Below, piece after piece: positions 31,574 to 61,842 of a DNA stretch of 64,000 nt. Origin of the DNA: Tubulanus polymorphus (lineage: Eukaryota; Nemertea; Palaeonemertea; Tubulaniformes; Tubulanidae). Where the stretch lies: assembly GCF_964204645.1 (NCBI RefSeq), contig NC_134029.1:22524450-22588449 (forward strand). The letters run 5' to 3'. Each line of letters opens with the position of its first letter. The first letter of the stretch is position 1. The notes beneath the pieces are model-generated. The model was not told the DNA's origin and made no database searches. It was given only the letters and a program-made list of their open reading frames with translations. The position numbers and the translations under genes were made by a program.

Positions 31574-34500
31574 TTAAACGTATTGATTTGGAAGGAATCC
31601 TACTACTGCCAAACTTTGAAGCTCATCGTTATTGTTAGCAGCCTTTCTTTGACGGTATTTCACGAGTTCAGGATTCGCGACCAGCGTACGACACAACAAC
31701 CATAACTTCTTTCCTTGAGATGCTGAATATAAAATAGCGAAATTTTTCATAAAACAATCTCAAATTGAATCTGCCAATCTGATAAGGAAGCTTTCATTTT
31801 AGCGCTGTACTTTAATTATTATATCCACCACTAAAGTGCTCATTGAAAATAATGGGCAGAAAGAAATAGACGTTCTAGTTAAGATGTTGTAATAATAGTT
31901 TTAAGACGTTTACCTGGATGTAAGACAGGAGGCTGCTGCAGTAGATGACAGAAAGAACGCATTATAGGATTCGTGTGTGCGTGGTCCAACAACAACATGC
32001 ATACATATGAGAAGTATCCTGAAATTATTAACATTTACAATCAGCAAAGAGAAATAGCCAGCGACCTTCAATTTGGAACTAAATTCATAGGATGTAAACT
32101 TCGAAGAGGTAGAATTCCCCAATAATCACTGCAATGTCAAACAATCGATCAACCAACAAGTTTTAAAACATCGCAAGTTTTGTGAAATTTGTCGAGGGGT
32201 GGGTGACAACTTGACGAAATTCTTCAATTTCTAAGGTGAAGCATAGAACTCGGGTGAAGTGACGATTCTATGAGATACACAACGATATTGCACAGGGTTA
32301 AAGATAAAAGTATTTTTCAACACCTCCGAATTTTCGGTAATTCACTAAAACCATTCATTTTCAAGGAATGAAAAATATGCATGATATGAGAACATTACAT
32401 ACTATTGCATACATGACTGCAAAATGATTAATAAGAGTTGCAATTAACTGTGACAAAACTACACAACTCCACATATAACCTAATATATATTCACCTCGAT
32501 CGAATTTCTCCATTCCTCTCATTAGAACAGATCTATGAAGACGCGAACTGAAAACTATGCCGATTACAGTTCCATACAGCAATCTCTTAACACTCGACAC
32601 CAAACCGATGTTCACATTGAAGAACGTGAAGTAGAAACTAGCGTTATTGTACCACATCCTGAAAATCAAAACGAAAATTGAAATCGATTTCAAGAAACAT
32701 CATCAATTCAGTAGTAAATCAGTACGAGCGAGAATTGACTACCTGTGCCGAATAGCAAGTGTCTTACGGTCGTCAAGCAGATATCTGCCCAATATGTTTT
32801 GCAGATAAAACAGTATTATCAAAATCAGAAATGGAGCGCTGAAAAGATTTATTGTAAAAAGAAAAAATCTTAAAATGATATTTTTCTAGCCATTAAATAT
32901 TCATATTCATGAATTCACATTGTAGACCAGTTCAATGGGGTAATAAATTGGTACTTACAAGGACTTGGTCATTACTTGTTTGAAATATTCAGCATCTCCC
33001 AGAATGATCGGACGGATGACACCGAAGTAAAGCAAAGAAGCAAGAACTGTCATCGATACTTGGAATATAAGATATCCTACGAAGAAAAATTATGCAATTC
33101 ACTAAGAACATCCTTATTCCGGAAATAAGATGAAAACACAAAACTGGGAATTTTAAAACTTACCCCAAATAATACTGGCAACTTGATATCCCGGAAAACG
33201 CATGGAGGCTGCCTATAAGATAAATACCTAGTTAAATCTCAAAAGTTATTCAACCATTGCATCAGAATTTTGCTTGTGTTTTTGCTTACGACAATTGCTG
33301 CTGGATTCGGTATAAGGCGTTGTTGAGGTAGAAATGATCGATCTCCGCGACTGATCTGTCCGAAATGTCTCCTATAGATGAACATCAAATGAGCCAAACT
33401 GACCAGAGTAAGCAGAAAACCGATTCCGATACAAATGAACAGAATGCCTGAAATCATACATATTTCTTCCATTATTCATTCTAAAAACTATCGCGAGAAA
33501 ATATACATCGAGAATCAGAACTACCTGCAAATTCTTTCATAATAGGAATCCACGTCGGCTGATTTTGCAGCAATATAAGACATTGTTTGCTGAATAAGTC
33601 AATAACGTAGATATCCAGAAACATAACCTACAAAACATGTGTTTTTTAATCATCAATATCATGTATAATATCAATGCCAGTATTACAGTATGTTTTCATC
33701 ATTCAACTTACTTTGTAAAGCATCACTAGACTGAGGAACAAAGTCACCAACATCTTCGTCGAGTAGCGGAAATTCTTGTGGAAATATGTCATCTTCAGTT
33801 GTCGAATTTTAGCATCGATTAAGAGTCGGTCGATCTTCCGACCGATATTTACATGTAAGCAAGAATTGTTAATCGATATGCAAGGTGCGGCAACTGGTTC
33901 AACTAGATGTTCACTATCGATGTCATCATCACTGAAATATAGCACAAATTTATAGAATAAAATTTCCTAAGATTAGTTAGACACGTGTGGTTGATGATAT
34001 AAACTTTACTTTTTTACAATTCACTTTGAAGATAGCATTTCCATAGATTATTAGGTTCTGAATGTAATGTAAGCCCTTATATATAATTATAGGTTTCATC
34101 ATAAAAAATAAGCCATAAAATAGCAACTATTCACCGTTTGGCGCTGTTTAGAAGACTGCCCACATAACGCATTTGAAATTCACTGGTTACATGAGAAGCC
34201 TGAAATGCAAGTAATGGGTTGAAATTACGACATACACCGGGATGAAAAACTACAAAGTGTGAAGACATTGATTTTAATTTGTAACCTCGTCATCTCTGCT
34301 GTAATTCTGAGACATAATACAACGACACAAAGACATCAGAAAACCGATGACAACACCTCCATAGCAGATCATGGTTGGGATGTTACTTAATGCGTCCATC
34401 AATGACTTATTCTGAAAAGTATGTAAGATAAGTTTAATCAACCAAATAAAATCAATATATATCCACCTCTTCGATTTATAGATCATATAAATGATTTTAT

Positions 34501-39250: not shown

Positions 39251-42200
39251 TCACGTGGCGGTTAGAAAATCTAGTGCTTCATCTCTGTTGTTGCTATGCA
39301 GAACAAGCGCTTCTCTTATTTTATCAGATTCGAATCCGAGCTCCTCAAACTGTCTGACCATCTCGATATATTCACACGCCTGTTAAACAAGAAATCAAAA
39401 CTAAACAGCCAAATCTGGTATTAATGATGCTTCACCTGGTCGACAGCAATTTGGAAGAATGAATGCCTGAAGAAAAGGTCGATTGATACCTGCATAGATG
39501 AGTTATGGTTAAACCGACATATTATTTACCTTCGCGAAATTATTGTCAAATAAAGCAAGGGAAAATTCAGCTTGTTCATCTTTGTAGCCTTTTTCAACAA
39601 TTCTATTCACAAGACATAAATGATCTATGACCTGAAAATAATGCGGTAAAAGAAATAGCTTTTACTCAAATAATCACGAATACAATTTGAGACAAAGTTA
39701 ATGAATGATATTAATTACTGACCACTTTGTCATCGGGGCCAAATTTTTTAACAGCTCTCGCCACTTGTGAACGAGGAAAGCCCATATCAGCGAGTGCGAG
39801 TACGAATTCCTGTTGACCGATCGGCAGACTACAGAATGGATCTACAGGAGTTGGTGAACACGGTGTCGACGATGAATCGCCGGTATTCTGTTGTTGCCAG
39901 TTCGGTAGAGGAGAATGTCTATTCCAATCCTAAAATACAAATTATCGATTATGAAATGCAATTAGTAGAAATTAATGAATTAATTCTATACAGTTAAGTA
40001 TAAGTAGATATATGCAGGTACCAATCTGTCACAACTCCTCGGGTGTTCAATACTTTATCGTCAACTCAATCTTCCCCGATGTTTTATCATCAAGGCTCCG
40101 TCCTTTGTTCAGGATTTTGCCTGTGACAATATCTGGCATTATCTGTCGATTAAATTCAATTTTCAATTGAAAATAGACTACAAATGCCAGACATTAGATA
40201 ACCATATTTTCACAAAGTTGCCATCAAGACGGCTAATTAATGATTTATACCTGCATATATAAGTTGATTGAAGAGGTAGAGGTACCTGTGTACTAGAAGG
40301 ACGAGGTGGCGGTGATGGTGATAACGGTTTGAACGGCGAGACAGAACGATTATTAAACGACGCCGACGAATCACGCGTAATATCCGGCGTACTCAGAGCA
40401 TTACGCAGCGGATTCAAAGTCGGCCATGATTGATCATTCACCGATGAACCGTCCGTGAATTGAGAGTTTTTATCGTGCGTAACGACGTCTAAATCGACCG
40501 AATTTAGTCCGTTTATATTCACCGACTCTTTATTGCGCTTGAAATAACACGAATACGGATTGAAACTATTATTCGTCGTTTTAATCTGATTAAATGAACT
40601 GTGTTTTGGATCTTTAACGTAATTCTCCAGTCCGGCGATGCTGTGTCGCCCCTCCGGGAATAAAACATGCTCGCAGTTTGTCGCGTTGGATTTTTTTGAA
40701 CCGATAGGGGGCAGCACGCTACGAGCGCCGAGTTTTCTACCGATAGAATTATCACAAACATTTTCATTGTCCGATTTCAGCATTGGATTGTCCGAACCCC
40801 CGATAGTGATAGAACCGTTTGGTCGATTTCTATCACATACGTTTTCATCGTTCTGACCAGTGGTGGCGCCGTCTAGCGACTGAGATTGAGCGACTTGCAA
40901 CACGTTTTTCAGTTCTTCCATCGTGTTGATTGTTTTTAATTCGAGTTTGTCGAACGGATCTTCCTCGCGTTCGAAATCGGTGAGATCGATACAGACGTGT
41001 TCGGCGGCGGTCGGCGACAGTTTACGAACCGGTTGTATCGGGGTCGGTAAGAGTATTTCGTTGCCGATGTTGAACAGGAGATTATGCCGCGGTTTCGCGA
41101 CGTTTTCATGACTAGAATCACACTGATTATCAACAGTAACAGCACCGGAATCTACAGCGTCAGTATCACAGGTTATATCGTTATTTACAGCAGCAGCAGC
41201 GCCGGCTGCCGCGTCTACGCTTGCGCGAGAAAAGTCTTCGATTTCGGCACCAACCGAACGAACTTGAGCCTCTTGTTCGGCGAGTTGCGCGAGTTGATGT
41301 TCCTCGTACGACTGAATAACTGCATGTTCCAGACTGAAGTCAATCTACAAGATTTAAAACACAGGGGTGGATTAAGCGGGGAGGGACCTTAGCTAAGTTT
41401 AACGGAGATAAAATTTTCAGAAACATAAGCTTAAAAAGGTTACACAAACAGTGGCAAATTATTTCCAGTCATTTTGGTTTCAGAAACACTCCCGAATCCT
41501 GATGTTCAGAAAATGATCAATGTTTTCAAATTTTCTTTGAGGACCCTAAGCCCTCGAATAAGCTTTGCACCTACGCCACTCCCTCTTCATAAGTTTTGCC
41601 CTTCCCTATTCTGGATTCATCATCTTTTATCAACCTATCACAGCTTTATCGCGAATTTGAACGGCAGAGTTTAGTTCATCGAATCGGATTGTATATCCTC
41701 ATAAATCAAAACCTAAAAGTTTGAATGAATCAAACGTATTTTGTAAATAAATTTTTTTCCTCCCAAGGGTGGAGGACATTTTTTTTAAATTCAGCCAATG
41801 GTGTTTCCTGTGTCTGTATGCAGTCTATATATTGTTACATATTACAAAATGGAAGTTAAAGCGTTAAAAAGAAACCTTGGTTATTAATGGTACAATAATG
41901 AGAGTATGATGATAACGAGAGAAATCCCACAAGAACGAAGCCAAGATTAAAAAATTCTATATCAGAATGATTATATTTGAGTAGCGACGTTTCGGCTAAC
42001 AACCGTTAGCCATCATCAAGCGTAATGACTCAGTGTGTCGCTCCTCAAATATAATCATTCTGATAAAGAACTTGAAATTTTCACTTCATTATCGTGGGAT
42101 TTCTCTCGTTATCTTCATACACGGATATTGTGTATCTTCTCGTCTTATTATGGTACAATCTTTATATACTTACATCTTCATAAATAATACGAGGAGGTTG

Positions 42201-42454
42201 TGCATTTAATACACTAGCAGGTAACGATACCTGCGGCAGTTGTTGAAACTTGTTGCTGATTACTAATGGTATTCCATCAAGACTTGAAGTTGCAGTGTCT
42301 GACACTGAAAAACATTTTACAAACAAAAACATTAGGCCTACCTCATAATAACAACACTTACTAGACATAGACATACTTGTCTAAAATAAGAAAAAATTAT
42401 CTTATGACATTTACCACTCCAAGTCCTGTTAATTCCACTATGGCCATAGGACAT
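39251..42454 (-). CDS. UBAP1: UBAP1, ESCRT-I ubiquitin-associated subunit
   Basis: Six exons on the minus strand: 42454-42415, 42304-42174, 41344-40286, 39929-39723, 39631-39530 and 39379-39251. They total 1668 nt, or 555 aa (human 502). An N-terminal UMA block (LDGIPLVISNKFQQLPQVSL, from about residue 23) matches human LDDVPFKTGDKFKTP. Residues around 150-175 carry DFEREEDPFDKLELKT, nearly identical to human DFECEEDPFDNLELKT. The C-terminal exons encode the SOUBA ubiquitin-binding bundle, including ALADMGFPRSQVARAVKKFG. UBAP1 joins TSG101, VPS28 and VPS37 to sort ubiquitinated membrane proteins into multivesicular bodies. The large third exon is low-complexity and CpG-rich, consistent with a disordered linker. 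The exon 4 donor GTCAGT was chosen because it preserves family spacing. It is head to head with TRMO. Confidence 0.95.
41904..42120 (-). mobile_element. Foldback element in UBAP1 intron 2 (family copy C)
   Basis: The outer inverted repeats GATAACGAGAGAAATCCCAC (41911-41930) and their exact complement at 42094-42113 extend outward to about 27 bp. Inner arms at 41961-41988 and 42037-42064 match over 28 bp with one mismatch. The central minus-strand sequence reads TTGATGA, a GGCTAAC/GTTAGCC hairpin, then GAAACGTC. This is the core seen near 37.6 kb with its leading C changed to T. It lies between exons 2 and 3 and does not disturb splicing. Confidence 0.85.
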
Positions 42455-42819
42455 TTTCAAATCTCACTGGATTCACATTTTCCGATAAACTGAAAGCAGC
42501 AAAATAATATTAATATAACGAAGCATATTGTAAGAAAACGAGTGAGTGGAGTACACACAGAGTATTTCATTCCAAAATCGAACGCGTCTTCCAGACTAAT
42601 TCAACCGTTGTAATAATCCTATCGACAGTGATTTTAATGCCTTCCACTTTAAATATCATAGATGTACACATTAAATATTGTCTGAAAGGACAAACTTACA
42701 CTGGGAACGACTTATTTACTTTTATTTAAGGAAAATCGCGTCATCTTCAGATGACTTACTTCCTGGTTAATACGCGATGACACTACCAGGTGGCAGCAGC
42801 TTCGCGGCCAGTTTAGGCT
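42455..42819. promoter_or_regulatory. Divergent UBAP1/TRMO promoter spacer
   Basis: Only 365 bp separate the start codons of UBAP1 (minus) and TRMO (plus), so both promoters and 5' UTRs must lie here. An ETS-like ACTTCCTGG sits at 42758-42766 and a 7-bp-arm palindrome GTCATCTTCAGATGAC at 42740-42755. Housekeeping-type bidirectional control is inferred from the layout. Confidence 0.6.
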
Positions 42820-44654
42820 ATGGCGACGAATGACAGGTTTTTACATTTAAATCAAGAAATCAGCGAAGCTAGAAGAGAAATCGATATACTCAGGTGTGTG
42901 ATTAATTTGAAACAACCTAAACAGTCGTTTAATGGGATTTTATTATGATATTTTCACTTGTCATACGTGGAAATGTGTGTATCAATTCAAGCAAAATATT
43001 ATTTTATTGTTAGAATTGTCTTTCAGAGAGATGATAGATTAGAAAATTGCATTGTTAACGTATCATCACGATAATTTCAGGAAGCAGATCACTGGATTAA
43101 GAGAAACCAACAAGAAAGATGTCCAAAGATTGGAAAAGCTTGTAAAGCAAATGTGCAAAAGTAGTCTGGCGTCTGATAAAACCACTGAACCATTTGGTAA
43201 AGCCTTGATTTAGGTTGTAAGGATTTAGCTGAATCTAGTTACTTTGATGATGACAATATGCTTGCGTTTAATTTTAGTTGATCTGTCATGTAAACCTATC
43301 GGTTATTTGCGGTCGATATTCAAATTCAAGAATGGAATTCCGAGACAACCGAGTGTTTGTCAACAGGCTCGAGGATGGTTGACCATTGAATCTACAACTT
43401 ACAATCCAGAACATTCGCTAGAAGGTCTTGAGTCATTCAATTATCTGTGGTATGTTAAAGTATCATATCTTGCATTACAATTGTACATTTCAAACTTGTA
43501 TTGTCATTATGAGTGATTGAAGATTAAACCCACAATATGAAGTAATGTCGATATGACGTTTTGATATTTCAACTCAAATGCTATTTTCAAAAACATTTTG
43601 GGCTTTTGAAATGTACTTCTGAGTTAAAACGTTAAATTCCTCTATCAGTTTTACTTCAATTTGTGGTTTTTTCTTCAATTGAATTTAACGGTCACACATC
43701 TCTGGAAACCATAGTCAGTAACCTGACTGTGGTTTAGTTTCACGATCGGATATTTTCACAAACCACAAGGTTGGTATAAGCCCATCCGATTATAAAAAGC
43801 TTACCACCAACGATTAGGTAACTAACTATGGAAACCATTGATTATGAGTGGTATATTTTTAGGATCATATTCGTGTTTCACAAGAACAACAATGAGTATA
43901 CTAAAGCTAAAGTGAAACCGCCGCGTTTGGATGGAGTCAAAGTCGGCCTGTTCTCGACGAGATGTCCCTATAGACCCAACCCAATCGGTTTAACATTGGC
44001 CAAGATTGAAAAAATTGAAGGTATATCCACTGAAACTTTACATGAAATTATCTTATTTGAGAAAAATGACTAAATTTCAGATCCAATATATTTTCTACAA
44101 TAGGAAGTACTGTTTACTTGTCGGGTATTGATATTTTGGATGGAACGCCTGTTCTAGATATCAAGCCATACATCTCGGATTATGATCAGCCAAATCAGCT
44201 AGCATTTACTATAGAACCTACATCGACATCGGACATCGGTGGCAAACAAAATCAGGATGATCAACTGGATGTGAAAGCTTTGAATGATCAAGAAAATGGA
44301 GATAAAACAGAGAATTCTGTCGCTGCATCTTGGATTAGTCAACCACCGATAGATGAACTCGATATCAGGTTTACAAACTTTGCTGAAGAACAATTGCGAC
44401 AGTTCGATGCCGTGAATGACAAACCTTTTCATCTGGAACAGTTAAAAACTTCAGCCGAATTAAAAACAGCAATTATCAACATTTTAAAAGCAGATCCGCG
44501 ATCTGTTTATCGGCGAAATCATTGTCAAGGTCGTCTGTATTTTTTCTGTCTCGATAACGCTCATGTTACTTGTTGGTTTGATAAAAACGTCGCTGAAGTT
44601 GTAAGAATTCAGCCTATGGCATTTAGAGACTCAAATTTAAAACGAAATGAATAA
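42820..44654 (+). CDS. TRMO: TRMO, tRNA (adenine37-N6)-methyltransferase
   Basis: Five exons: 42820-42893, 43081-43196, 43278-43449, 43863-44020 and 44104-44654. They total 1071 nt, or 356 aa (human about 441). The first two exons encode a charged coiled-coil-like N-terminus (QEISEARREIDILRKQITGL). Exon 3 opens the TrmO/YaeB (TsaA-like) beta-barrel with PIGYLRSIF and RQPS. Exon 4 holds the cofactor-site signature RCPYRPNPIGLT, and exon 5 has SGIDILDGTPVLDIKPY, both hallmark motifs of the family. The enzyme uses S-adenosylmethionine to methylate N6 of t6A37 in tRNA-Thr(GGU). The start ATGG has a favourable context. An acidic insert follows the barrel before a conserved C-terminal segment (LKADPRSVYRRNHCQGRLYF). 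Confidence 0.95.
43709..43831 (-). mobile_element. MITE in TRMO intron 3, dispersed repeat copy 1
   Basis: The 123-bp element is bounded by CCATAGTCAGTAACC and GGTAACTAACTATGG, inverted repeats with two mismatches. Internal blocks such as the reverse complement of GTGAAAATATCCGATCGTGA and of CCTAATCGTTGGTGG recur at 62.08-62.18 kb in the opposite orientation. It is non-coding. Confidence 0.8.
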
Positions 44655-47260
44655 ACTTTCACCTGTAAAATGAATAGGTCTTGGTTTTGATTTTTGCCAG
44701 TAATCTGCTCTTCATTCGGATTGCAGTCAGTTATTTCTCAGGGATGGAAAACTAAACCTCAAAAAAGCTTTAGCAATCGCCATAAATCACAACACTTCAT
44801 ATTTTACACAGTTATCAATTTATATTATCTTTTTTAAATACAAAATAATTTATTTTCTGTACAATAATTCATCCTTCTATTGCACGTGCTTTCAAGAAAG
44901 TATTAACAACATTCTATTCCTAGAATTGTTCTGTTCCTAGAATAATTGAACTTTGTTAATACGAATCTTGTGGTTACAGTACTGTGAAATTGGTTTTGTA
45001 TTATCAAAATCTATCGCGGTAGACGTTATCATAATCAACAGTTATTTTATGTAAAATGAATCGTATTAACAAGGTTCAACTACATATACATACTTATATA
45101 TTTATCTAATATCCCAAAATTGAAAGAAAAACTTTTAATGGCTGCAGCCCTGAAAATTGTTACAATTACAGTTATTTCTAATTCAGAAACCTGCACGATA
45201 GCTAATAAAAGTTTCAGCAATGATTTGAGGATGCATAAGACCCCTTCATACAGGTCTATGGCCTGATATCATTGTGCAAATTATCAGAATTCTAACAAGT
45301 ACAAGTACTGTTCGTATCCTATTTTTGTTGGCAATCATTTTTCGATTCATTTGAAAAAGTTTGATTCGATATCGGTTTCCATTGACTGGAAAATTTCTCA
45401 ATACTGAGTTCGTAAGACTAGCATTCCTAGTACATTTGTATTCCTCGATATTTGTAGTTCACCAATTCCACAACAGTTATTATAACTATTAATACTTTAA
45501 AAAAAAAAACATTCATTATTTTATCACAATTCAAGTAACACATACACGCCATAAAAAGAAGGATATTTTATAGAAAAATTAATTGCAAAATAATCAATAA
45601 CAATAGAAGTGAAAGTATCCGGTGAAACTGTGACCAGTCTTTTTTAATATTCCATAGTTGATAATCCGCTTCTCTATAAGGGATCTTTCATTTATAGGCC
45701 TTATGTATGCATAAAACTTGAAGTTTCCGGCCCGTTTTTCCTATACTTTTAAGCATTTAGTACGCAATTGCACCTCCATCTCTCCTTTCCCTATCCCTTA
45801 ATGCATAGGCCTACATAATAAATGAATGAACCCGAAATGAAATATAATTGTAGCTTTATAAATTCTATTCATTCATGCGGCTGCTGAATTTGGATAATAC
45901 TGAATCATTTTTTTTCAAAAATATCTACTTGCTAGATAACAAAGTCACTGATAATAATGATCTGGGCATCAGTCACATTCCAATTGTTATTTTCAATTAA
46001 AGTCGAATAATAAGATATAAGCAGAACAATCAATTTCTACCGACTTGATCTGAATAAAATATGCCACGTCTATTGAAACAGTGTATAAATCTATACGATG
46101 TAGACAGATGTACCTGATTAATCACAGTCAACTGATATACAAGAAACTGCACTATACCTAATCTAATATACATAGAAATGCCTCGATTTAATGAAATTGG
46201 ATTGAACAAGCATATTTGTCCAGTGTCCTGATCACACGGAGACCTGGGTGAAATCGGCCTGGACCAGACAAAAGTCACATTTGGCCCATAATTAGAGTGT
46301 GCATTTGCACGTAAATCATTCATTCGTTGTCAAAATGCTATAAAAAGATGCTGTGGCGAGGCATAAACCAGATAGCATTTACATGGAATAATTTCACGCG
46401 TGCTATAATTTGGCACTGGCCTGGTCTGCCAACATTTGGTCTCGGTAAAATACACATGTGTGAACCTGGCATTATTTCAATCAGGTTCCACCGTACTGGC
46501 TTTAAGATCAAAATAAGTAGTTGAAAAATGAAATTTCGAGGAAATATACTTTTTACCTCGGGGAACAATGTCAAATGTTATCACTAATTCAAAATAAGTA
46601 ACAGACTTTCTCCGGAGGCTATACAAGTAATAGTCCGACGTCATGGTAACGCAGAAGGCATGAGACGTCAGTTGGAAGACATTATTTCTAAGAGTCTGCT
46701 TTAAAGCCAAATACTATACATGCAACTAACACGCATACGATAAAATATTCATATATACCACGTATACAAAATACAATGAAAACTCAATATAGTGAAGCAC
46801 AATATACTAGCATTTTAGAGCAGAATGTAGGCACATTTCAGAGTGAATCAGCTCAGATGTGATAACACAAGGAGGTCGTTCGAGCTCAGATCTTTAATCC
46901 GCAAAGCATCAACTTTCACCACAAGAACGCTGAATGCAGGTACTGAATTTGCTATGAGCGCGACATTATTTGCAGAGTCGGACAACTTCCAATTCTTCGC
47001 GTCTTCTCAACTTAAAATAGGAGATGCTGGAGATAGGCAGTGATTTTGTAATCAAACTCTTTCAAATGTGTCGACGGCTAGACTAGAAATACTCCTTATC
47101 GAATATGTACGAATGAATTCAGCGGTCGATATAGACACTGCTCAATCTCACACAGCAACAAATCTCATCTCGATAGCGAAATCTGGGTAGGTGTTTCGTG
47201 TGACCGCCTCCCGGTACGAGTTTAAAATGCGCAGTACAAACAAGTGTAACGACGACGCTG
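44655..47260. other. Convergent TRMO / FAM219 intergenic region
   Basis: This region holds the 3' ends of TRMO (plus) and FAM219 (minus). It is strongly AT-rich with no supportable exon. Short overlapping open frames occur on both strands around 46.0-46.7 kb. They have no similarity I recognise and no consistent splice context. Confidence 0.5.
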
Positions 47261-48391
47261 CTATTGTATCACACATGACGCTGTATTCGGGTTGCAACAT
47301 ACGCAACGTTCGTTGAATGATTTCGGAGGAATTAGATCCAAGTCTTCATCGTCCGGCTGTAAATCTAAATTATATCCATCTTTGATCAATTGTTGCGTAA
47401 TATCCTGATTGGAGATTTTACTGAATATCGGCGATTCAAATTCATCCTCGCTGAAATGAACAATTCAATATTTTCAATGCAGTATAAGGAAAAATGAATT
47501 ATGCTTGACTTCCTAACACAACCATGTTTACACGCTAGAATGGGTTAGGGTTTGGGATGGCGGGGTGAGATCAAGGCGTGGATGTGAAGATTACGGTGTA
47601 TGAGGGATTGAAAAGGTCGACGAACAAACGAAATAATTTCGATACACACCTATCATCTGATTGTATGGCAACTAAAGGCTGTATATCGGAATGTAGTAAT
47701 AACGTGTGGCCACCTTTCTGCGGAATCTTTAATCTGAAAAGATAATATCAAAACCATTTCATTGAATCATAATAAATCAACCAATTGACTTAGTATATTT
47801 GAGTTAGAATTACGTGCAGTGAAAACCCACCTGCTCATTGATAGTAAGCCAGGTTTTCTGGTTGGTTGATCAATGATTGCTGCCGATTTTCTAGCAATTT
47901 CCCTTTGTTTTTCTAGAAAAAAAGGTATTGAGACAATTCAAGATTTGAAGAAACTACAAAGAATAAGACACAAGGATTTTTCGGCATTCCAGAATTTATA
48001 CGCACCAATCTTCTTCTGTAAATCCGATGGTCTTCTAATATTGATTCCAGTTCCTTTATTGGATCCTTTCGGTGATACTGGGCTGTGATGCTGAAAATGA
48101 ATCGTTATAAAATGGCTATTATTATAAAAAAGGAACCTTCACCATTCGAAGTGTATTTGTCCATCAGATGGTGGAGCCTTAATCATTTAAATCTAACACT
48201 AGAAGTTGGTATAAAGGAAAACACAAAACTGAAGAGATGCAGATTTTTGACTCGAAAGATGTTTACCCAGACTACTTTTCATCATTTTTTAGTAAAACAT
48301 ATGTTAATTCTGAAAATACCTTAACAGTTGTTGAGCCATTACTGGAGGTTTTAGGATCGCTATCGAAACCGCTATCTTCCATGCTATCCAT
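47261..48391 (-). CDS. FAM219A: FAM219 family protein (FAM219A/B-like)
   Basis: Five exons on the minus strand: 48391-48320, 48090-48006, 47912-47831, 47733-47650 and 47450-47261. They total 513 nt, or 170 aa (human FAM219A about 185). Two blocks identify it: LQKKIEKQREIARK (human LQVKLEKQRELARK) and the C-terminal signature DGYNLDLQPDDEDLDLIPPK followed by SFNERCVCC. The vertebrate proteins have no settled biochemical function, so none is assigned. The protein is short, without signal peptide or membrane helix, and rich in Ser and acidic residues. An in-frame TAG lies shortly upstream of the chosen ATG. It is head to head with DNAI1 at about 490 bp. The vertebrate ancestor of both FAM219A and FAM219B would correspond to this gene. 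Confidence 0.95.
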
Positions 48392-48881
48392 GGATACGAT
48401 CGGTCCAGATACAAACTAAACATTCATGATTTTCGTCGAAATATTGGGTTTCGGCGAACATAAGCAAATCAACCGGACTCCATTTCGTTCCGTGACGTCA
48501 ATCGGGGAACCCGTTTAGAGGACACTCGATTCTGTTCCGTGACGTCAATCTGGGAAACCTGTTAGGAAAACTGAGAAACTGAATGACGAAATATGGAAAA
48601 TAAGTTTATTCAAATTATGATGATTAGATATATAGTTGTATCGTTTTTTGAACAAATATCAAATAAAATAAACATTTTATTGTTATAAACTAAACATTTT
48701 TTCACAAAGCTTAAGATTTTTAGAGTAAATTTATTTCCGACGTGCCACCAAGGTGTTCTACCTTTAATGAGGAAGTATCAGTCGCCTTGGATACACAAGA
48801 CGCCATATCACAGGCAGAGTAAATTCTGTCGGTGTTCATGAGTTTCCAGAGCAGAATTGTATCGAAATAAACTCAGCAATT
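48392..48881. promoter_or_regulatory. Divergent FAM219/DNAI1 promoter with duplicated CRE
   Basis: The 490-bp spacer between opposite start codons contains two perfect CRE palindromes TGACGTCA at 48493-48500 and 48540-48547. Each is embedded in a unit running GTTCCGTGACGTCAATC, then GGGAA, then a GTTTAG-like end. The units are tandem with a 47-bp period (48487 and 48534). CREB/ATF-family binding and bidirectional activity are inferred. Confidence 0.75.
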
Positions 48882-51800
48882 ATGCCACCAGCAAAGCAAA
48901 CAGTCCGAATAAGACAGGTAAATGAGGGGTCAAAATTTGACACATCAAAATCGGTAGTTTGTCGCTGGAAAAACGATAAATTCCGTTGCTAGAAACTGAG
49001 TTTATGTTTTTTTTAAGTCAAATCAATTGATTTTATTTAGTCTTCTTAAATTCTTAATATTTTATACGATGCAGATATATTGTATATCTATTTATATAGT
49101 CGTAAAAGTTAAAGAAGCCCAACAAATAAGTTAAGTAGGTTTCAAGAAAAAGTAGTGACTATAAAGATTAATTTTCAATCAAACACAATTGTTTCACAAC
49201 AAAATCTCTGAAAAAGAATACCTCGCTAATGAAAATTGTTGATGATGTTCACAATAAAGTTTTTTGCATGTTTTTAGTCAACAGTTTTAACCAGCATTCT
49301 TCAGATTGACATTTTCAGGATTTGAAACGACCATCTCTTATTGATTGTCAGTTTAAAGTAGAATTTTGCTCTTTTCATTTCATTCAATTGCAATTTGCAC
49401 GATCATTTTTCAAGTTCTAGATTTAATTTCTTATTGAGAAAGAGGGATGCGTTTATTGAAAAAATATTTTATTAGAACCTTTTCTGCCCAATGGGATTTT
49501 AGTCGCTTTTCGCTGATAAATTTCAAAGTAAATAAATAAGTAAATGTATGAGTGTACTTTGAATTTTAAAGCAGCCAGGTACTGGCGCTCCAGTAGCCAA
49601 AGGGAAACCTAAAAGAGTAAGTAGAACCTGTGATTGAAATTATGGTTGAAGGTTTTGTTGATTCTGTACTTCTGAAATCAGTAGTGGCTTTTTATTCAAG
49701 ATGGAAAGAAGCGTTTGCTTTGAATCCCTCGTAGGCTTCAGATCCTCTTAGATACCATCAACTTCTTCTGTCAAGATGATTTCAGGGACATGGAATCGGT
49801 CTCAGTGTCATTTAGATTAACATGAAACATCACGGTTATTAATTCAATTCAAAAATTCCCGAAATAGTGATGCGTCATTTTAAACTTTTTGACCGTTAAT
49901 GTTTGGTGAAGTGAAACTCAATGATGTATAGGCCTATTGAGTTTCACTTCGGTACCCATGGTAACCAGGGCCTTGTTTCACAAAATCAGGCTATAATTGT
50001 TGAGATTGAAAACGTGAAACCGATAGCGACTAAACCAAGAATTTGAGCTTTTTGTGAAACTTGGCTCAGATCTAAGACTAACCTGCATATTCTGGTTGGT
50101 GTTGGAAAACTGTGTTGGTACAACTTGCACAAACTTCCCTCAATATGTTCATCTTGAATGTTAAATCAATAGACTTTCTCGGCATTCATAAGAATATTGA
50201 GGGTAAGTTTTCTCGACCCAGCCAACTTATTATTCATAATTCCGCACTAACAATTAATTCTACCTGAATTATTTTCATCTTTAGCCACCTTCCGGTGCAG
50301 GAGGTGGCCCGCAGAGGATCCACCCCAGTCAGGCAAGAGCTCGGCAAAGTATAGCTGCGCCGCGACTAAGCATAGCCCCGACAAGACTGGCCAGGGTAAG
50401 AAAGGTCACCGCCAGTTAAGCAGAACGCGAAATCCTGGCAAAAATACTTGATTTCAAATGCTAACTTAAGTTTTTATCAAAGCTATTCTTGTGGACTGTA
50501 GAATATTTCACCAATGGTAATGTAGAGTATGACATCAAGAATCTCTACCATACTTGTATCTTGTACATGTTCCCACTCTTGCTTAGAAAAAGAAACAATT
50601 TAGCTTTCTCCTACTAACCGGAAATGTATTTATCCAAAAATATGCACCAATTAAAAACTTATTTGTTCTTAAGGGTTACAATTTCCCTTCCAAATCATGT
50701 ACTAACATGTTTAATGTAACAGTTAAAAAGATAATGTACTTATTTTAAACGCAATCACAATTAGATGGAAAAGGTAGCTCAGCTATCTAGCCATGCTGAG
50801 GTAAATTTTAAGCACTTCTTTGTTGAGAAAAAGCAGTTCTTTATTTCTACTAACTCACAATTTATTCTTTACGACACATATTCTTACAGATTAAACTTCA
50901 CATACTATTTTTTTCTGAATTTTTACAAAAATCTTCAATTTCTTGGACTAATAAAGATCGAATTTGCTGATTAGCAGATTCATTACTTTTAGCATTTCTT
51001 GATAGATTCACCAGGTATAACTGCTAATCTATCTGCGGGTTATGGCACGTATTCTGCCTGCTACATCGTGCAATTTATAAGTCTTCTATATTTCACTTAA
51101 TTTCAAAGATTCTTTATCTACCCTTTATCAATAACTTTTATGAATTCAAATTATCACTTATGAAATAAATTGAAAAAGAAATATATCTTTTATTGCTGCT
51201 AAAAACTATGAATGGCAAAAATCTGATATTTAGTCCATATCATAGAAACTACAAGTTGATTATGTGTAGGACGTATCTGTCAGATTCTTGTCATGAAGGA
51301 AACCGATTTTTATAAAATGCTAATTTGATATTGAACAGGAGGAAGATGATGCAACATCGATGGGTGAAGCTCGTGAGGATGACTGGATGCAGGTATTGAA
51401 TTCATTTTCGTGGATTTTAAAAAGATGTCTTTCACGTGCGTCGGTTAAAACTTCATTTGTCTATGTTTTCTTCTGTAGCCACGAGCGCTTATTAAACCCG
51501 ATGACCAGCTACAGTTGAGTGAAGCTGTAAGTTTCAATTTTCGTTTCTGAAAACGTTTCTGGTTTGTAGGTTTTTGGAATAGAAATTCCATATAAATTTT
51601 GTTTCTCCAAAGATGAAAGGAATAGAAATTCCATACAGGTATATGCTTTATTTCTCTATTTCTGTCATTATGAAATTCTTATTCCGTTTGCAGGAATTGA
51701 AAGAAGAATTCACACGTATTCTGACCGCTAATAATCCGCATGCTCCTCAAAATATCGTCCGATATAGTTTCAAGGTAAGGAAATATTTCCAAATATTCAT

Positions 51801-54800
51801 GAAATCTCTATCCATTAGCAAAGTTTGGTATTGAAATTTTCTTTTGAAAATGTACGTATTTGCAGGAGAAACAATATAAACAGATATCGCAGGTCGATCA
51901 GTTGGCAATTCACTTTTCTCTTGATGGTAACATGCTACACAAAGAATCAGATGAGGCCAAACGTCAATCTATGCGTTCTGGTCAAGCTGAAGGTATGGCA
52001 GTCGAGAAGAATACATTATAATCATAATTAGCTTTAAGTTCTGCGGCCTAAAAAACGTATTTATAAGCATACTGAATGAACAATACTTGTACCCAGATCA
52101 AACTACAATAGATGATCTGCAATCAGAAGATTTACATCATAAAACAGATGAAGGTATCATTTTGATAGTTCTAATTTTTTATTGAGCTAAGATAATACAC
52201 AAGCTTACACCTAGGAGATGATTTTCAAATTCTTCTGTAATTTTTAGATTGTTGGATTTTTTGATGCATCACGCATGAACATCTTTGTTTAGCTTTGACT
52301 TTTTAAGCTAATTTCAGGACACAGAAATACGATTTTCAAGCACCGTATCATTCAAGATTCTACTGGGTTAGTTTTCATTAGGCTTAAGTCATGAATGAAT
52401 ATGTTTCTATTACTTTTTAGCTGCTACAAGTGACCAGGCGATCAGTGAAGATGATGAAGCCGGCGCAGATGCAGAAAAACCTGCTGAAGAACAGAAAGAA
52501 GGAGAGGTAAAATTCACATCCGATGAACGATGTTAAAAATTTGCCTATTTTTTACTGGTATTTTTTCGGTTCCTAATCATTGAAAAAAAAGTTCGTAATT
52601 TTTAACGAAAATTGTCGCAAAGATTTTGAAATAAATATAATCTATAAAATGTGCAGCCATCGCGACCAGGATCACAGTTAAGTAAAACACAGAGCACTGA
52701 CAAAAATGAGAAGGTAATTTTACACAATACTCACCCTTAAACAAGTACTACAAGCATTTAAGGACATAACACGAAGTGATATCTTACATGCATATAAATC
52801 ATTGCATGGTTTTAAGTCCCAGGTAGTTAACTCGTCTGCTTTTGGTTTCAAAGTTGGATGACCATGAGCAAGTTTCTCATGATGAAATTGATGATGATGA
52901 TAATGAAATTGATGATGATAAAGAATCATCACTGAAAAGTCATGCATCATGTAAGAGCTTGACACCGAGTCAGGTCGCTGAGAACGAGGTAATGCATGGA
53001 AAAATGCATGAAACAGTAGAGAAATTAAACACATCGGTCAAATTATGTATATGAGTAGTACTTAAAGATGACATTCGTTCGCTTTAATATGAAGCTTACA
53101 ATCAAATCATCGCTAATCAAAGGTTTACCATCATAGCTTGAACTCCTTTCAAATCTCTCAAGTTACTCTTCAGTTGAATTTAGTTTAATATCTACGAAAC
53201 TGTTAGTCAGTTATAAGAATGAATAGAAGAAGGCTTTGAGCCATCGAGATTAGATAGAGAAAGAATTGATCTTATAAACATTTTACGAACAATTTTCTAA
53301 AAATCCCCGCTGCTATGAAGGTGACAGTAGAAGATGTAGCTCAGTTCAAGCCACCGCCGGTGGTTCAGAAAACTAAACAGCGTCGGCGACGAGCTGTTAG
53401 CGTTGATGACAGTGACGATGAATTCACCGATGAGGTATAAATCAATCACACTTTTACATCACGCGAACTCTTGCATATCACGCATACCGGTACAAACACT
53501 TTTAAATGCATGTCGCGAAGGGAAAATATAAAACAGCTTTCGAGAGCTTTCGATTTTCACGCATTGAAACTTTGGAACTGTTGCAAGGTAAACGAAAATC
53601 TGGTTTTCTGTTTCAAATAATGTTAAAAAAATGAGACAAAAAGGTAAACTCGGACACTTCACCAGTTCATCAAATGTGTAACTTATAGAATCACTGTAGG
53701 AAGTTAGCGTGTATTGCATTGCAAGTAGTGTACTTTCTAGCTTGACACGGTAGGCTATAAAGTCGTATCACCTCGAAATGATATATTGATTTCATTCCTA
53801 GGATGAGGGTCAAAAGGAAGAGGCTACTTCAAGTGATGGTAAGAAATTGACAAACCAGTTCAACTTCAGTGAACGAGCTTCACAGACGTACAACAATCCT
53901 TACAGAGTAAGTTATTCATGAAAATCATTTCAAGAAAAAAGGTGTTAATATTTGTGTAGGCCGGAGAATTGAATCTAATTTCTGTGATTATTTTCAGGAG
54001 CGTGGAACAGCTACTGAACCGCCGCCGCGAGAGACATTTTCTGGAAATGTGACACAGTGGGAAATATATGACGCTTACCAAGAAGATTTCGAGAAACAAG
54101 TAAGTTAAAACAGTGGCTAACATATCCTTTATCGTTATGAATGTGAGATTTCTTTGAGTAATTTTTGTTCCCTAGATTTTCTATTTCTTCTTAACTTTTC
54201 TTATGTTTCTTAATCATTGCCAGAAAGACAAGGATATTCTTGATATGAAGTTTCAAACGTACATTCATAATCCTAAATATCGGCCAAAAACTGTTAAACG
54301 TTTGAAACCTATATTTGCCAGAACGGTAGGCCCTTGTATCGCATGCCTCTCTTTTTCATAACCACCTTGTATGTTTACAGATATACACACGAAATACAAA
54401 CCAGTTTCAGCATTTACTCTGTACATCGATAAATAAAACATTCACATTTACTTCTTTCACTTAGGAATAAAATATACATTCCATATTGATGTATTCTTAG
54501 GTAGCTTTTATTTACTGCAAATTTTTATTTTAAGCCGATATTTTTGACATAGTGTAAATGATCAGTGAAATTCTTTTATTACTTCTACGTTGTTTCTTTC
54601 AAATTAAGCTGAGCGTTTTAAGTTTGCCTGGATCAAAACCAAAGGAGGTAATCAATCATTGCGGCCTGATCCAAATTACTACGATATACATCTCTTCTCT
54701 GTCCTATCCGTGTATTTGAGTTTATTTCAACGTTTTTCTACTTTTTTTTATTTTTTGCCGTCAGTTTTTGAATGAGGACTGTGATGAGGTATTGATCAAT

Positions 54801-57800
54801 GCATGTGCATATATTCAAATAGACTGTTGTGTCAAAAACCATTCAAAATCCAAGATTGAAATCTGTTAGCAAACACTAACGTTTTCAGCTGTATTTCTAG
54901 GAGAAGAATAAAGAAAAGAAGGTCGTCCCTGGTAAGAAAGACGATGAGAAGATGAAAAAGAGATTGACAGTAGTAGACAGTCAGGGAGATGATATCAGCA
55001 GAGTTCAAAGAGCCGCTCAAATAGTTGAGAGAATGGTAAATCAGAATACTTATGACGACGTAGCACAAGGTACCTTTCCTTCCGATTAATTTCACTAACC
55101 AGCCGAATGAGAAAGCTTTTGAACGATGATAATGTGTGTTCTGTCTGATTCCAGATTTCAAGTACTGGGAAGATATATCAGATGAATACAGAGACCAAGA
55201 GGGTACATTATTACCGCTATGGAAATTCCAGTACGACCGCGCTAAGAAACTCGCCGTGACAGCCGTCGCCTGGAGTCCAACTTACAAAGATTTATTCGTC
55301 GTTGGCCACGGATCTTGTAAGTTGTCTAGAATTGCGTTCACATCGTTCAGAATTTTTCATACAATATCCGATGTTTTTTTTTCTGTTGCCAGATGATTTC
55401 TTGAAGCAGACGAGAGGAATGATATTGTACTATTCGCTGAAGAATCCCTCGTTCCCTGAATGGATATATTCGACTGATAGCGGCGTAATGAGTTTAGATA
55501 TTCATCCCGAGCATCCGTATTTAGTAGCTGCAGGTTTTTATGATGGAAGCGTCGGTGTATTCAACATCATCGAAAACAAAGCTATGCCGATTCAAATGAG
55601 CACAGCTAAAAATGGCAAACATACAGACCCGGTCTGGCAGGTAGGAGAAACACTAAACATGAAAATACCTTCCATCGAACATTTCAGACTCGAAAACATT
55701 TTCTAAATGTATATTAATGCTGGGTGTTTGTTGTTGTAGGTGCGATGGCAAAAGGATGATATAGATAACAATATGAACTTCTATTCAGTTTCCTCAGATG
55801 GAAGAGTTGTATGTTGGACCTTAGTCAAAGTACGTATCAATAGAAATAGAGAGGCTGTGTACTGCTATAGTCAAACACTTGTTTATACGATGAAATTTGT
55901 TTTGTAGAATGAACTTCACTACACAGATATTATTGCACTAACACTAACTTCTGACCCATCTGAAGGTCCAGACGGAACTAAACTTACCACATCAGGTTTG
56001 TTGAATATCTCATGACCTGGATCAATTTCAAATGATCAGGAGATATCTGTATATTTCTATGTAACAAAATTTTGTCTTCTATTTTACTTTTAGGTTGCGG
56101 AACTGCATTTGATTTCCATAAGCACACAGACTACCTGTTTTTGGTCGGCACAGAAGAAGGCCGAGTGCACAAATGTTCGAAAGCATATTCAAGTCAGTTT
56201 TTGGATATTTTCGAAGCACATCACATGGCCGTTTATAAAGTAGCCTGGAACACGTATCATCCTAAAATATTTATCACGTGCAGCGCTGACTGGAGTGTGA
56301 AAATCTGGGATCATACCTGCAAGTAAGTGAAACACTCCAAGAATATCTCATCTCGGTCTTAAACCAATTGAAATTCTGTAACTCACTTTTTTATCTACGA
56401 TCTTGCAGGGATCCATTGTTCACGTTTGATTTGAACAGTTCAGTTGGAGATGTAGCCTGGTCTCCATATTCGTCAACTGTTTTTGCAGCAGTCACAGCCG
56501 ATGGCAAGGTATGTTAACCTGATCTTCCCTATGTTTACTTTCGTATGGGAACATGAACTGTAGCGATGAAATATTATTCGATACTAACTTTTCTGATTTC
56601 GAATCTTTATCATTCAAACTATAGGTATTTGTCTATGATTTGAGTGTGAACAAGTATGAACCGATTTGTGAACAAGCTGTTGTGCAGAAGAAGAAGACAA
56701 AGCTTACACATTTAGCTTTCAACCCGACGCATCCTATTCTCATTGTTGGTGATGATAGGTAAGCATTGCTGCCTAGAAAATTCCACCTTATACTCGATTA
56801 TGTCTGATTACATGCCGGGTTATCAATCTATCTTTCCAGGGGGCACGTTCTAAGTCTGAAGCTTTCTCCTAATTTACGGAAAATGCCAAAAGTGAGTAGT
56901 TTACTAAATGTATGGAAGTGAATTCATGGTTGATTTGTGATAGGATTTTTTTAGTTAATCAGTCAAAATACAAGCATTTTTAACAAACATTTGGTGTGTG
57001 AAAACCTAACCTTTAAATCCGCCTTGCTTTGAGTTTACTAATGAGGTGGGATTAAGATGTGTTTTACTTATGCAACTTGTTAAGTACATTTCTAGTACCG
57101 GTAGTTGTCACTGAAATTTATATTTTTCTAACCATATGCATTTACAGACAGGAGGATTCTTTAGTGCAGGCCAGGTATAAATAACAAACACTTCTCGAGT
57201 TTAGGAATCAACTACAAATTCATAGCGTATTCATATAAGAATGTTAGAAATTTTAGTTGAACATAGATGAAATCGTTTTGAATCATTGTTTTAGTCTGTA
57301 TAATACGGACTAAAACAATGATTCAAAATACTATTAGATTCAATTTCGATGTATGTATCTATTGAAATTATAGTCAGATTCTATGTAGTATAATAGGATA
57401 GAACCGTAGAGAACAATCTAGACATTTAGAACTTAGTTTGAGATAAACATTTACCTTTCACTGGCCCTGTAGAAAAAGTATCAGGTAATCCACTTTTATC
57501 ATAGAAAATTACTGTCGCCTTCTATTTTAACTCAAATTTCTTTGACTCTTTTCTCTTGCTGACACAAAATAGCAAGCACCTAGTTCTAGTCTTAGCACTG
57601 CTGGAAAAAAGGTCCAAAAACGACTGGACCAGGTAAGATATCACCACAATAGCTTATCCCCTTCTGTCTATATATAATACTACCCGGTATATACTTCTTC
57701 ATCGATGTTGTACTATTATACGTCATTCTAAGTAACATTTGGAGGCTAAAAAGAAAAAAAGATGCACTGATCATGATTAGGAAAAAACAGTTTGAAGACT

Positions 57801-58581
57801 TTGCTAAGTTCGATATTTTATTAAAAATCGTAGTACTTACCGCACTAATTTATTTAGCCAGCATCTCTACCTGCAGTTAATGATCAGTCAACAGAAGAGG
57901 TATGCGCAGATGGATATTCACAACCATATAAAGTCTTCACTGTGTACATAAACATTTATAGGACGATTTACTGATTACTGAGTTATTTTCATAAAGAGCA
58001 GTGTTGTTATACTATAGCATGAATTGTACACCAGTTGAGAGTACTTTCAAATGAATGTCATACGTATCTAAAGCAAATGTAATTTCAAAATCTTTTTTTC
58101 ATATGTTTTTCTATGAAAAATGCATGCATCGCGTTCAGCTCTATTTATGTGTCATTATTTTATAGGCTAAAGTCACTGTCTTTTCATATCAACTCGGTAA
58201 CACTGGAAACATGTACAGTGGAACCTCGTTATGACAAACTTCGGGGGACCAGAAAATCAGTTTATTTTAACCGATAATTTGTTATATTGAGTACAAAGTT
58301 ATTTGGGATGAAATTCTAGGTTTCTAATTACAACCAATAGATCGTAATATCCAAGGTTGTTATAACGAGGTTCCTCTATGAATGACATGTAAAATGTATT
58401 TTACATACCTGTATCTGTTTATTATTACTGCGTTCATATTGTGTCCCTTTTCGTTGATTGTCTACGATTTGAACATTTTCAGGAAAAGAAAGGTGCTGAA
58501 GCGACGAAAGGACCAGAAGTTGAAATCGCTAAATTGGATAAGATCTTGGCGTTAGTGCGAGAACCGGAGAAAAAGAACTAA
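48882..58581 (+). CDS. DNAI1: DNAI1, outer-arm axonemal dynein intermediate chain
   Basis: Exons: 48882-48917, 49575-49616, 50285-50395, 51339-51392, 51479-51526, 51694-51774, 51866-51992, 52097-52153, 52421-52506, 52657-52713, 52854-52988, 53321-53434, 53802-53906, 53998-54099, 54224-54325, 54609-54647(?), 54765-54788(?), 54901-55069, 55155-55316, 55393-55640, 55740-55829, 55908-55995, 56094-56322, 56409-56508, 56625-56758, 56840-56891, 57148-57174, 57573-57632, 57858-57899 and 58483-58581. They total 2820 nt, about 939 aa (human 699). [38 protein letters not shown] and [10 protein letters not shown] are near-identical to human DNAI1. The second half is a WD-repeat propeller that anchors the outer dynein arm, while the N-terminus binds light chains. 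The extra length lies in acidic linker cassettes and short C-terminal exons. AATAAA occurs at 58998-59003. Confidence 0.96.
49908..49950. repeat. 15-bp inverted repeat hairpin in DNAI1 intron 2
   Basis: GAAGTGAAACTCAAT (49908-49922) and its exact complement ATTGAGTTTCACTTC (49936-49950) flank a 13-nt loop. Confidence 0.85.
49966..50068. mobile_element. MITE-like unit in DNAI1 intron 2
   Basis: The left end CAGGGCCTTGTTTCACAAAA and the inverted right end CCAAGTTTCACAAAAAGC match over most of their length, enclosing about 100 bp of non-coding sequence. The terminus resembles that of the element in the receptor intron at 25190. Confidence 0.6.
57276..57328. repeat. Near-perfect 53-bp palindrome in a DNAI1 intron
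   Basis: Two 26-nt arms (57276-57301 and 57303-57328) are reverse complements with a single mismatch and are separated by one base (A at 57302). The arms begin TTTTGAATCATTGTTTTAG. The near absence of a loop makes a microRNA precursor unlikely. It lies between the exons ending at 57174 and starting at 57573. Confidence 0.9.
58216..58379. mobile_element. Tigger/pogo-like MITE in the last DNAI1 intron
   Basis: The left end CAGTGGAACCTCGTTATGAC follows a TA dinucleotide. The right end, inverted, reads CATAGAGGAACCTCGTTATA. The shared GGAACCTCGTTAT terminus is typical of pogo/Tigger-type DNA transposon termini (recalled). There is no transposase frame, so it would be non-autonomous. Confidence 0.65.
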
Positions 58582-60318: not shown

Positions 60319-61842
60319 TCAGTGATACGTATCTACTTGTTTTGAATTCGGATATTTCGGGTTTTCGATGACGCCGGCGCCGAATTTATATTCGAGAAAC
60401 TCGCGTACGTTGTTCGGCGCGCTGGCTTCGATTCCGGCGAATTTGATTTTCGTCATCGGCTGTAAAAACTTTTCCGGAAACTCGCGATCCTGCCGATGCG
60501 ATTTAAACCAGTATTTCTTCGTCATGATTCCGTTTTTCGAATAAAACGGAAATATGTCGACGTGCAGGTGATTCGTTTCGCTGTACTGAACTCGGAAAAA
60601 ATGTCCTTCTTTCACGTCCGACCGTTGCCAGACGTAATCGTTCTCGTCGACGATACCCCCGTCGTCTTGGACCGATTTCAAATTTTTACACTTCGGAATA
60701 TCTTCGAGATAGATCCCGATATCGACGTCGTAATCCCACGGAATGATGTCCTCGTTGCGAGCCGCGCCTAACAAACTTCCGCCTTCGAGCCAGTATCGAA
60801 CGCCGCTTTCCTCTAAAGCGCGTATCACGTAAGCGGCCGTTTCGCGTAATCCCTTCAGACAGCACGGCGGCGTCCACCGATTCGCGTATATATATTCGGG
60901 CATGTCGTTTATGACGGTTCCGAAACAACGAGCCGTCGTTTTACCGCAACCGAACATCTTCTCGTCGCCGCCGACGTCGATCACTTTTTTAACGCCGAAC
61001 TCTTCGTAAACTCTTCGCAGACGTTCGGCCTCGCGAGTTTCGTGTTTCCACTTGACGTGCGAATCCGCCGCGTACAGCTGCCTCGGTTTACGTTCGAACT
61101 CGATTCCGTCGGCGATGTAGACTTTCCAACGATTCAGACTCGTTTGAATGAACAACGCGTGTTTAATCGGTCTCAGAAACGGATTCGACAGAGCGAGGAA
61201 ATCTTCGCGTCGCATCGCGAGAACCGCGTCGCTCAGAACGCTATCGCAAACCGAACGATGACACAACGAATGCTGCAGCGTCCATCTCTGTAAATCGAAC
61301 TTCGTTCCGGCCGGAGTGAGAAACCCGGGCGTGATTCCCGCCGCTGCGATTCGGATATTACCGAAACTATCGACGAATTTATCCCTCATTATTCGTACGA
61401 GTTTTTTCAGATTTTCCCGCGTGTCGATCCGGACTCCGTCGGGAACGAGAACCACGTTGCTTTTATGGATGAAATTTTCGGGTCGCGTTTCGAATAACGG
61501 TAATCCCGGCGAATCGGGCTTCAAAACGACGACTTTCACGTTTTTAAACAGGTGTAAATCGATAGGCGGGTACGGAAGTTTGTCGGCTACGACGAGGATA
61601 TCATCGCGCGGAAATGTAGCCGCAATATTGCTGATTATCGACAAAACTTCATTATCAAATTCTTCGAATTCTCGAATAATAAATGTGACGCTGTCGCTAT
61701 TTCTGTCGGAAAGCGCCCTCTGTTGGTTATTGATGGCTTCGTTTTTATCTATCTGCAGCTGTAGATGGTATAGGTAATAGAGTACACCGACGTTGATGAG
61801 TAAAATTGCTGCCAGGAAGATTCGCAGCGGAGTGATCTTCAT
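60319..61842 (-). CDS. FKRP: FKRP, ribitol-5-phosphate transferase (fukutin-related protein)
   Basis: A single uninterrupted exon encodes 507 aa (human 495, also one coding exon). A type II signal anchor lies at residues 6-26 (LRIFLAAILLINVGVLYYLY). A stem domain follows, with REFEEFDNEV (human REFEAFDNAV) and KLPYPPIDL. The C-terminal LicD-type nucleotidyltransferase domain carries RYWLEGGSLLGAARNEDIIP and the catalytic acidic motif DYDVDIG (about 370-376). It ends with GVIENPKYPN. Four zinc-site cysteines appear at about 299, 306, 327 and 328, matching human 289, 296, 317 and 318. FKRP adds the second ribitol-5-phosphate to alpha-dystroglycan O-mannose core M3 in the Golgi. I chose the ATG at 61842; the more upstream in-frame codons are TTG. 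A six-codon upstream ORF precedes it. The exon is much richer in CpG than the flanks. Confidence 0.97.
   Translation of the reverse strand: MKITPLRIFLAAILLINVGVLYYLYHLQLQIDKNEAINNQQRALSDRNSDSVTFIIREFEEFDNEVLSIISNIAATFPRDDILVVADKLPYPPIDLHLFKNVKVVVLKPDSPGLPLFETRPENFIHKSNVVLVPDGVRIDTRENLKKLVRIMRDKFVDSFGNIRIAAAGITPGFLTPAGTKFDLQRWTLQHSLCHRSVCDSVLSDAVLAMRREDFLALSNPFLRPIKHALFIQTSLNRWKVYIADGIEFERKPRQLYAADSHVKWKHETREAERLRRVYEEFGVKKVIDVGGDEKMFGCGKTTARCFGTVINDMPEYIYANRWTPPCCLKGLRETAAYVIRALEESGVRYWLEGGSLLGAARNEDIIPWDYDVDIGIYLEDIPKCKNLKSVQDDGGIVDENDYVWQRSDVKEGHFFRVQYSETNHLHVDIFPFYSKNGIMTKKYWFKSHRQDREFPEKFLQPMTKIKFAGIEASAPNNVREFLEYKFGAGVIENPKYPNSKQVDTYH

Follow-up and report, generated by a model that had tools for sequence, protein, structure and literature searches.

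Short microsynteny blocks on ancestral linkage groups are known from bilaterian genomes, where a few unrelated genes are neighbours in both protostomes and vertebrates and match the wider content of their chromosomes. In vertebrates UBAP1 and UBAP1L are split over the two segments of the 9/15 paralogon, UBAP1L being placed at human 15q22. The same division is seen for FAM219A/FAM219B and RPP25L/RPP25 in the horse, cattle and human lists.

On horse chromosome 23 the order is UBAP1 (50.232-50.255 Mb), KIF24, NUDT2, MYORG, C9orf24, FAM219A (50.362-50.367 Mb) and DNAI1 (50.427-50.465 Mb), with UBAP1, FAM219A and DNAI1 spanning about 235 kb; ENHO, CNTFR, RPP25L, DCTN3, SIGMAR1 and GALT follow beyond DNAI1, which places DCTN3 and SIGMAR1 near that gene (PMC8515666). 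The vertebrate linkage of UBAP1, FAM219A and DNAI1, which the initial annotation had given for human 9p13.3, is supported by this table, and in coho salmon one 0.76-Mb interval contains dnai1.2 together with fam219ab (PMC8102513). The list for cattle chromosome 21 includes COX5A, FAM219B and MPI and, further along, ARID3B, UBL7, SEMA7A, CYP11A1, STRA6 and ISLR, about 13 genes separating STRA6 from FAM219B (PMC9602073). The grouping of STRA6, FAM219B and UBAP1L on 15q, also given in the initial annotation, is supported in so far as FAM219B and STRA6 occur in one list, but these two genes are not tight neighbours.

Gene content of the Tubulanus polymorphus locus

The window is the whole stretch of 64,000 nucleotides that was analysed (C5:22,524,450-22,588,449), in a genome of 268 Mb and 77 contigs. 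The following genes were recognized, in this order:

about 24.6-26.0 kb, plus strand: rhodopsin-family GPCR
31577..33475, minus strand: STRA6/RBP-receptor gene, C-terminal exons (Pfam RBP_receptor, E=2.5e-16, profile positions 325-604)
39251..42380, minus strand: UBAP1 (Pfam UBAP-1_UBA2 and UBA; stop codon ends at 39251)
39254-39929, minus strand: UBAP1, SOUBA C-terminal exons
40178-41344, minus strand: UBAP1, large exon
within 42165-42380, minus strand: UBAP1, putative UMA-type N-terminal exon, assigned by eye
about 42820..44654, plus strand: TRMO, tRNA methyltransferase O (TrmO_N 4.9e-38, TrmO_C 8.7e-5; from open reading frames)
47261..48391, minus strand: FAM219, 170 aa (PF15260, E=1.4e-20)
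48320-48391, 48006-48090, 47831-47912, 47650-47733 and 47261-47450, minus strand: FAM219, five coding exons, hand-spliced at GT/AG boundaries
48882..58581, plus strand: DNAI1, axonemal outer-arm dynein intermediate chain 1 (PDB DNAI1 entries, E=1e-250 and 5e-241)
60319..61842, minus strand: FKRP (Pfam FKRP_N, 1.5e-57, and LicD), flanking and outside the shared block
after FKRP, plus strand: Nnf1/PMF1-like exon

The STRA6-type gene, UBAP1, TRMO, FAM219 and DNAI1 all lie inside about 27 kb, and the interval 39251-58581 runs exactly from the stop codon of UBAP1 to that of DNAI1. The identities and positions assigned to these genes beforehand agree with the Pfam and PDB matches and with the match of the UBAP1 SOUBA region to human UBAP1 4ae4 (E=1.1e-13). 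For DNAI1, the axonemal DNAI1 far outscores DNAI2 and the cytoplasmic chains; the first ATG in its exon 1 is at 48882 and its C-terminal exon ends at 58581. The model of the STRA6-type gene covers the C-terminal exons, and the N-terminal exons would lie further toward 38 kb.

Of the 124 positions in the family model, the FAM219 protein covers 8-124. Its weak PDB match to a designed protein was dismissed as low-complexity. FAM219 and the STRA6-type gene each have a single match in the whole genome, in keeping with the claim, for these two, that one copy lies here; moreover, FAM219 has paralogues on both vertebrate segments, so that its single match is what would be expected of a locus that precedes their duplication.

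FAM219 (start codon at 48391, minus strand) and DNAI1 (start codon at 48882, plus strand) are divergently placed with 490 bp between the start codons, the head-to-head arrangement that had been proposed. UBAP1 and TRMO are likewise head to head, and a few hundred bases separate their first recognized coding exons (window positions 42380-42820). With the human FAM219A on the minus strand and both DNAI1 and UBAP1 on the plus strand, the orientation of UBAP1 relative to FAM219 appears flipped in Tubulanus.

Linkage along the contig

FKRP, RPS3A, GEMIN5 and PGM2, which flank the locus, are not 9p13/15q genes, and the same is true of most other flanking genes; the shared block is therefore short. 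On the left flank, around C5:22.492-22.496 Mb, similar repetitive open reading frames occur on both strands, probably as a local repeat family.

Seven probes had been chosen beforehand from human chromosomes 9 and 15 (COX5A, groucho/TLE, NOL6, SIGMAR1, MPI, DCTN3 and RPP25). COX5A (6.77 Mb), groucho/TLE (5.0 Mb) and NOL6 (0.2 Mb from the window) share the contig of the window, whereas SIGMAR1 is on C7 and MPI on C9. The genome search was negative for DCTN3 and RPP25 (Alba), both of which are close by in mammals, a result that is not evidence of absence. Three of the five detected probes are thus on this contig against 9.3% expected for each, which is above chance (P about 0.007, or about 0.02 if the undetected probes are counted as misses) and of moderate weight given the few probes.

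The region C5:22.738-22.788 Mb is packed with UBE3A, a SKI/SKOR-type gene, RPL4, a MAT2B-like gene, a TPR gene resembling TTC23, and NOL6. The human relatives of UBE3A, SKOR and RPL4 are on 15q, SKOR having one on 18q also, and those of COX5A, groucho/TLE, NOL6, UBE3A, SKOR and RPL4 are, taken together, on 9 or 15. When the genes named in the finding are left aside, 18 genes were identified in the vicinity, and 4 of them belong to the 9/15 set, where about 7% would be expected (P about 0.03). Between the window and NOL6 there are many genes whose human counterparts map elsewhere, so that only the immediate cluster forms a tight block. No telomere repeat was found at either end of contig C5, and its status as a whole chromosome is accordingly not established.

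Of the six nearest neighbours of FAM219, two (UBAP1 and DNAI1) also belong to the 14 genes that accompany it in the horse UBAP1-CCL19 interval. The probability of this overlap is 5.6e-6 for a random genome (22,000 genes assumed) and 6.7e-4 for one shuffled chromosome (2,000 genes assumed); the latter is the fair null, and it is exceeded. The FAM219/DNAI1 pair alone is not decisive, since about two conserved divergent adjacent pairs would be expected genome-wide if gene order were shuffled within chromosomes.

The FAM219-DNAI1 intergenic region

The sequence between the two start codons includes the following features:

48392..48881, no strand assigned: divergent gap, candidate shared promoter
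48488..48512, plus strand: CRE-containing repeat, copy 1, TTCCGTGACGTCAATCGGGGAACCC
48535..48559, plus strand: CRE-containing repeat, copy 2, TTCCGTGACGTCAATCTGGGAAACC, 47 bp downstream of copy 1

The two copies are near-identical (TTCCGTGACGTCAATC[G/T]GGGAA[C/A]CC) and each carries a perfect CRE (TGACGTCA). When the 25-mer was searched genome-wide at up to 3 mismatches, three sites were obtained, namely both copies in the gap, which are the only exact sites in the genome, and one site on another contig with 3 mismatches. This is suggestive of the duplicated CRE element being a local promoter element. CRE sites are also more numerous across the window than expected (5 observed against 1), some of them outside the gap. 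An RFX X-box was considered for the gap as well and rejected, the best site having 3 mismatches, which is the level of chance. Both observations count against the promoter reading.

The opposite-strand starts are less than 1 kb apart, as in bidirectional promoters, the distance being taken between start codons rather than between transcription starts. Taken alone, a divergent promoter shared by FAM219 and DNAI1 is a proposition about evenly balanced between being right and being wrong.

Origin of the cluster

Mitochondrial COX1 gave no match, and the animal was placed by its Hox peptides. In the homeodomain search the Hox genes were recovered as a colinear cluster on C6 (5.32-5.63 Mb), with a single posterior gene apart from it on C7, a separation that is annelid-like. 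Two central Hox genes carry a UbdA peptide (IKELN), as in Lox2/Lox4, and the tail of a third, KLNGP, is Lox5-like. The UbdA and Lox5-like peptides are established marks of protostomes, and they place the source among the protostomes, most probably within the lophotrochozoans. In such a source, linkage that is shared with vertebrates implies a bilaterian origin unless it is convergent. A Cdx-like and a Gsx-like homeobox gene, both of ParaHox type by resemblance, are close together at C5:5.59-5.61 Mb, on the contig that also carries the window.

UBAP1, FAM219 and DNAI1 are clustered both in this protostome and in a deuterostome, the horse. From the identities and arrangement of the genes, their single matches, the vertebrate linkage and the other 9/15 genes on the contig, we infer that UBAP1-FAM219-DNAI1 were probably neighbours already in the bilaterian ancestor. 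The cluster would then be a short remnant of that ancestor's gene order retained in this lophotrochozoan, and the vertebrate genome duplication would have copied the block to 9p13 (UBAP1, FAM219A, DNAI1) and 15q (FAM219B, UBAP1L, with STRA6 in the wider linkage group). The pre-duplication bilaterian block of the initial annotation is thus retained for these three genes, which are most likely ancestral in view of the horse linkage, the protostome source and the 9/15 genes of the contig, but not for STRA6, which shares the wider linkage only. Evidence to the contrary is the location of SIGMAR1 and MPI on other contigs, the missing matches for DCTN3 and RPP25, the differing orientation of UBAP1 and the flanking genes from outside 9p13/15q.

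What most likely holds FAM219 and DNAI1 back to back is one compact divergent promoter that the two would share, the 490 bp with their duplicated CREB/ATF-type site; we propose that breaking a shared promoter would impair both genes. The main alternative to this promoter, though not to the ancestry, is passive retention, in which joints of one ancestral linkage group simply happen to be unbroken, with neither a shared promoter nor selection. Passive retention is favoured by the spread of the other 9/15 genes over megabases of the contig, as with TLE and COX5A (5.0 and 6.77 Mb), and by the colinearity of the Hox cluster, which speaks for a conservative genome. However, little of the gene order on the contig has survived, and still FAM219 and DNAI1 are adjacent, divergent and 490 bp apart; we consider passive retention a serious, though less likely, explanation.

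It is unlikely that STRA6-UBAP1-TRMO-FAM219-DNAI1 formed a single tight ancestral block that was dispersed later in vertebrates, TRMO being on the other arm of human chromosome 9 from UBAP1, FAM219A and DNAI1; TRMO may be an insertion or an original member. In Tubulanus all five genes indeed fit into about 27 kb, and human chromosomes 9 and 15 carry their relatives, but in the cattle list some 13 genes separate STRA6 from FAM219B (PMC9602073). This distance means that the tight linkage of STRA6 in Tubulanus may be secondary. The data fit STRA6 having belonged at least to the same wider ancestral linkage group, and it is not placed in the tight block.

A further alternative is an independent origin of the FAM219/DNAI1 adjacency in both lineages within a shared ancestral chromosome; two lineages were compared, and shuffling within chromosomes alone would yield about two such pairs per genome, but UBAP1 is also within two genes (P 6.7e-4 even under chromosome-limited shuffling), and we regard coincidence as very improbable.

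No function is known for FAM219. It might act together with motile cilia, a CRE-driven promoter shared with DNAI1 having held the two genes together from the bilaterian ancestor onward. This seems quite improbable, but if true the conserved FAM219-DNAI1 adjacency would reveal a role for this gene. The position of FAM219 next to a motile-cilium gene in a lophotrochozoan and in mammals is in any case a testable hint on its regulation.

Comparison with known systems

A literature search found no description of a UBAP1-FAM219-DNAI1 block, and the known microsynteny blocks comprise many other gene sets. The Tubulanus cluster nevertheless resembles them in its few unrelated neighbouring genes and in its matching wider chromosome content, and it is a new example of a known phenomenon, not a new kind of system. 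FAM219 and DNAI1 are moreover arranged like divergent bidirectional-promoter pairs, as far as start codons alone define such a pair. Unlike the vertebrate 9/15 segments, the Tubulanus locus is an unduplicated counterpart, with STRA6, UBAP1, FAM219 and DNAI1 together, and reconstructions of the vertebrate 9p13/15q segments can use it as an unduplicated reference.
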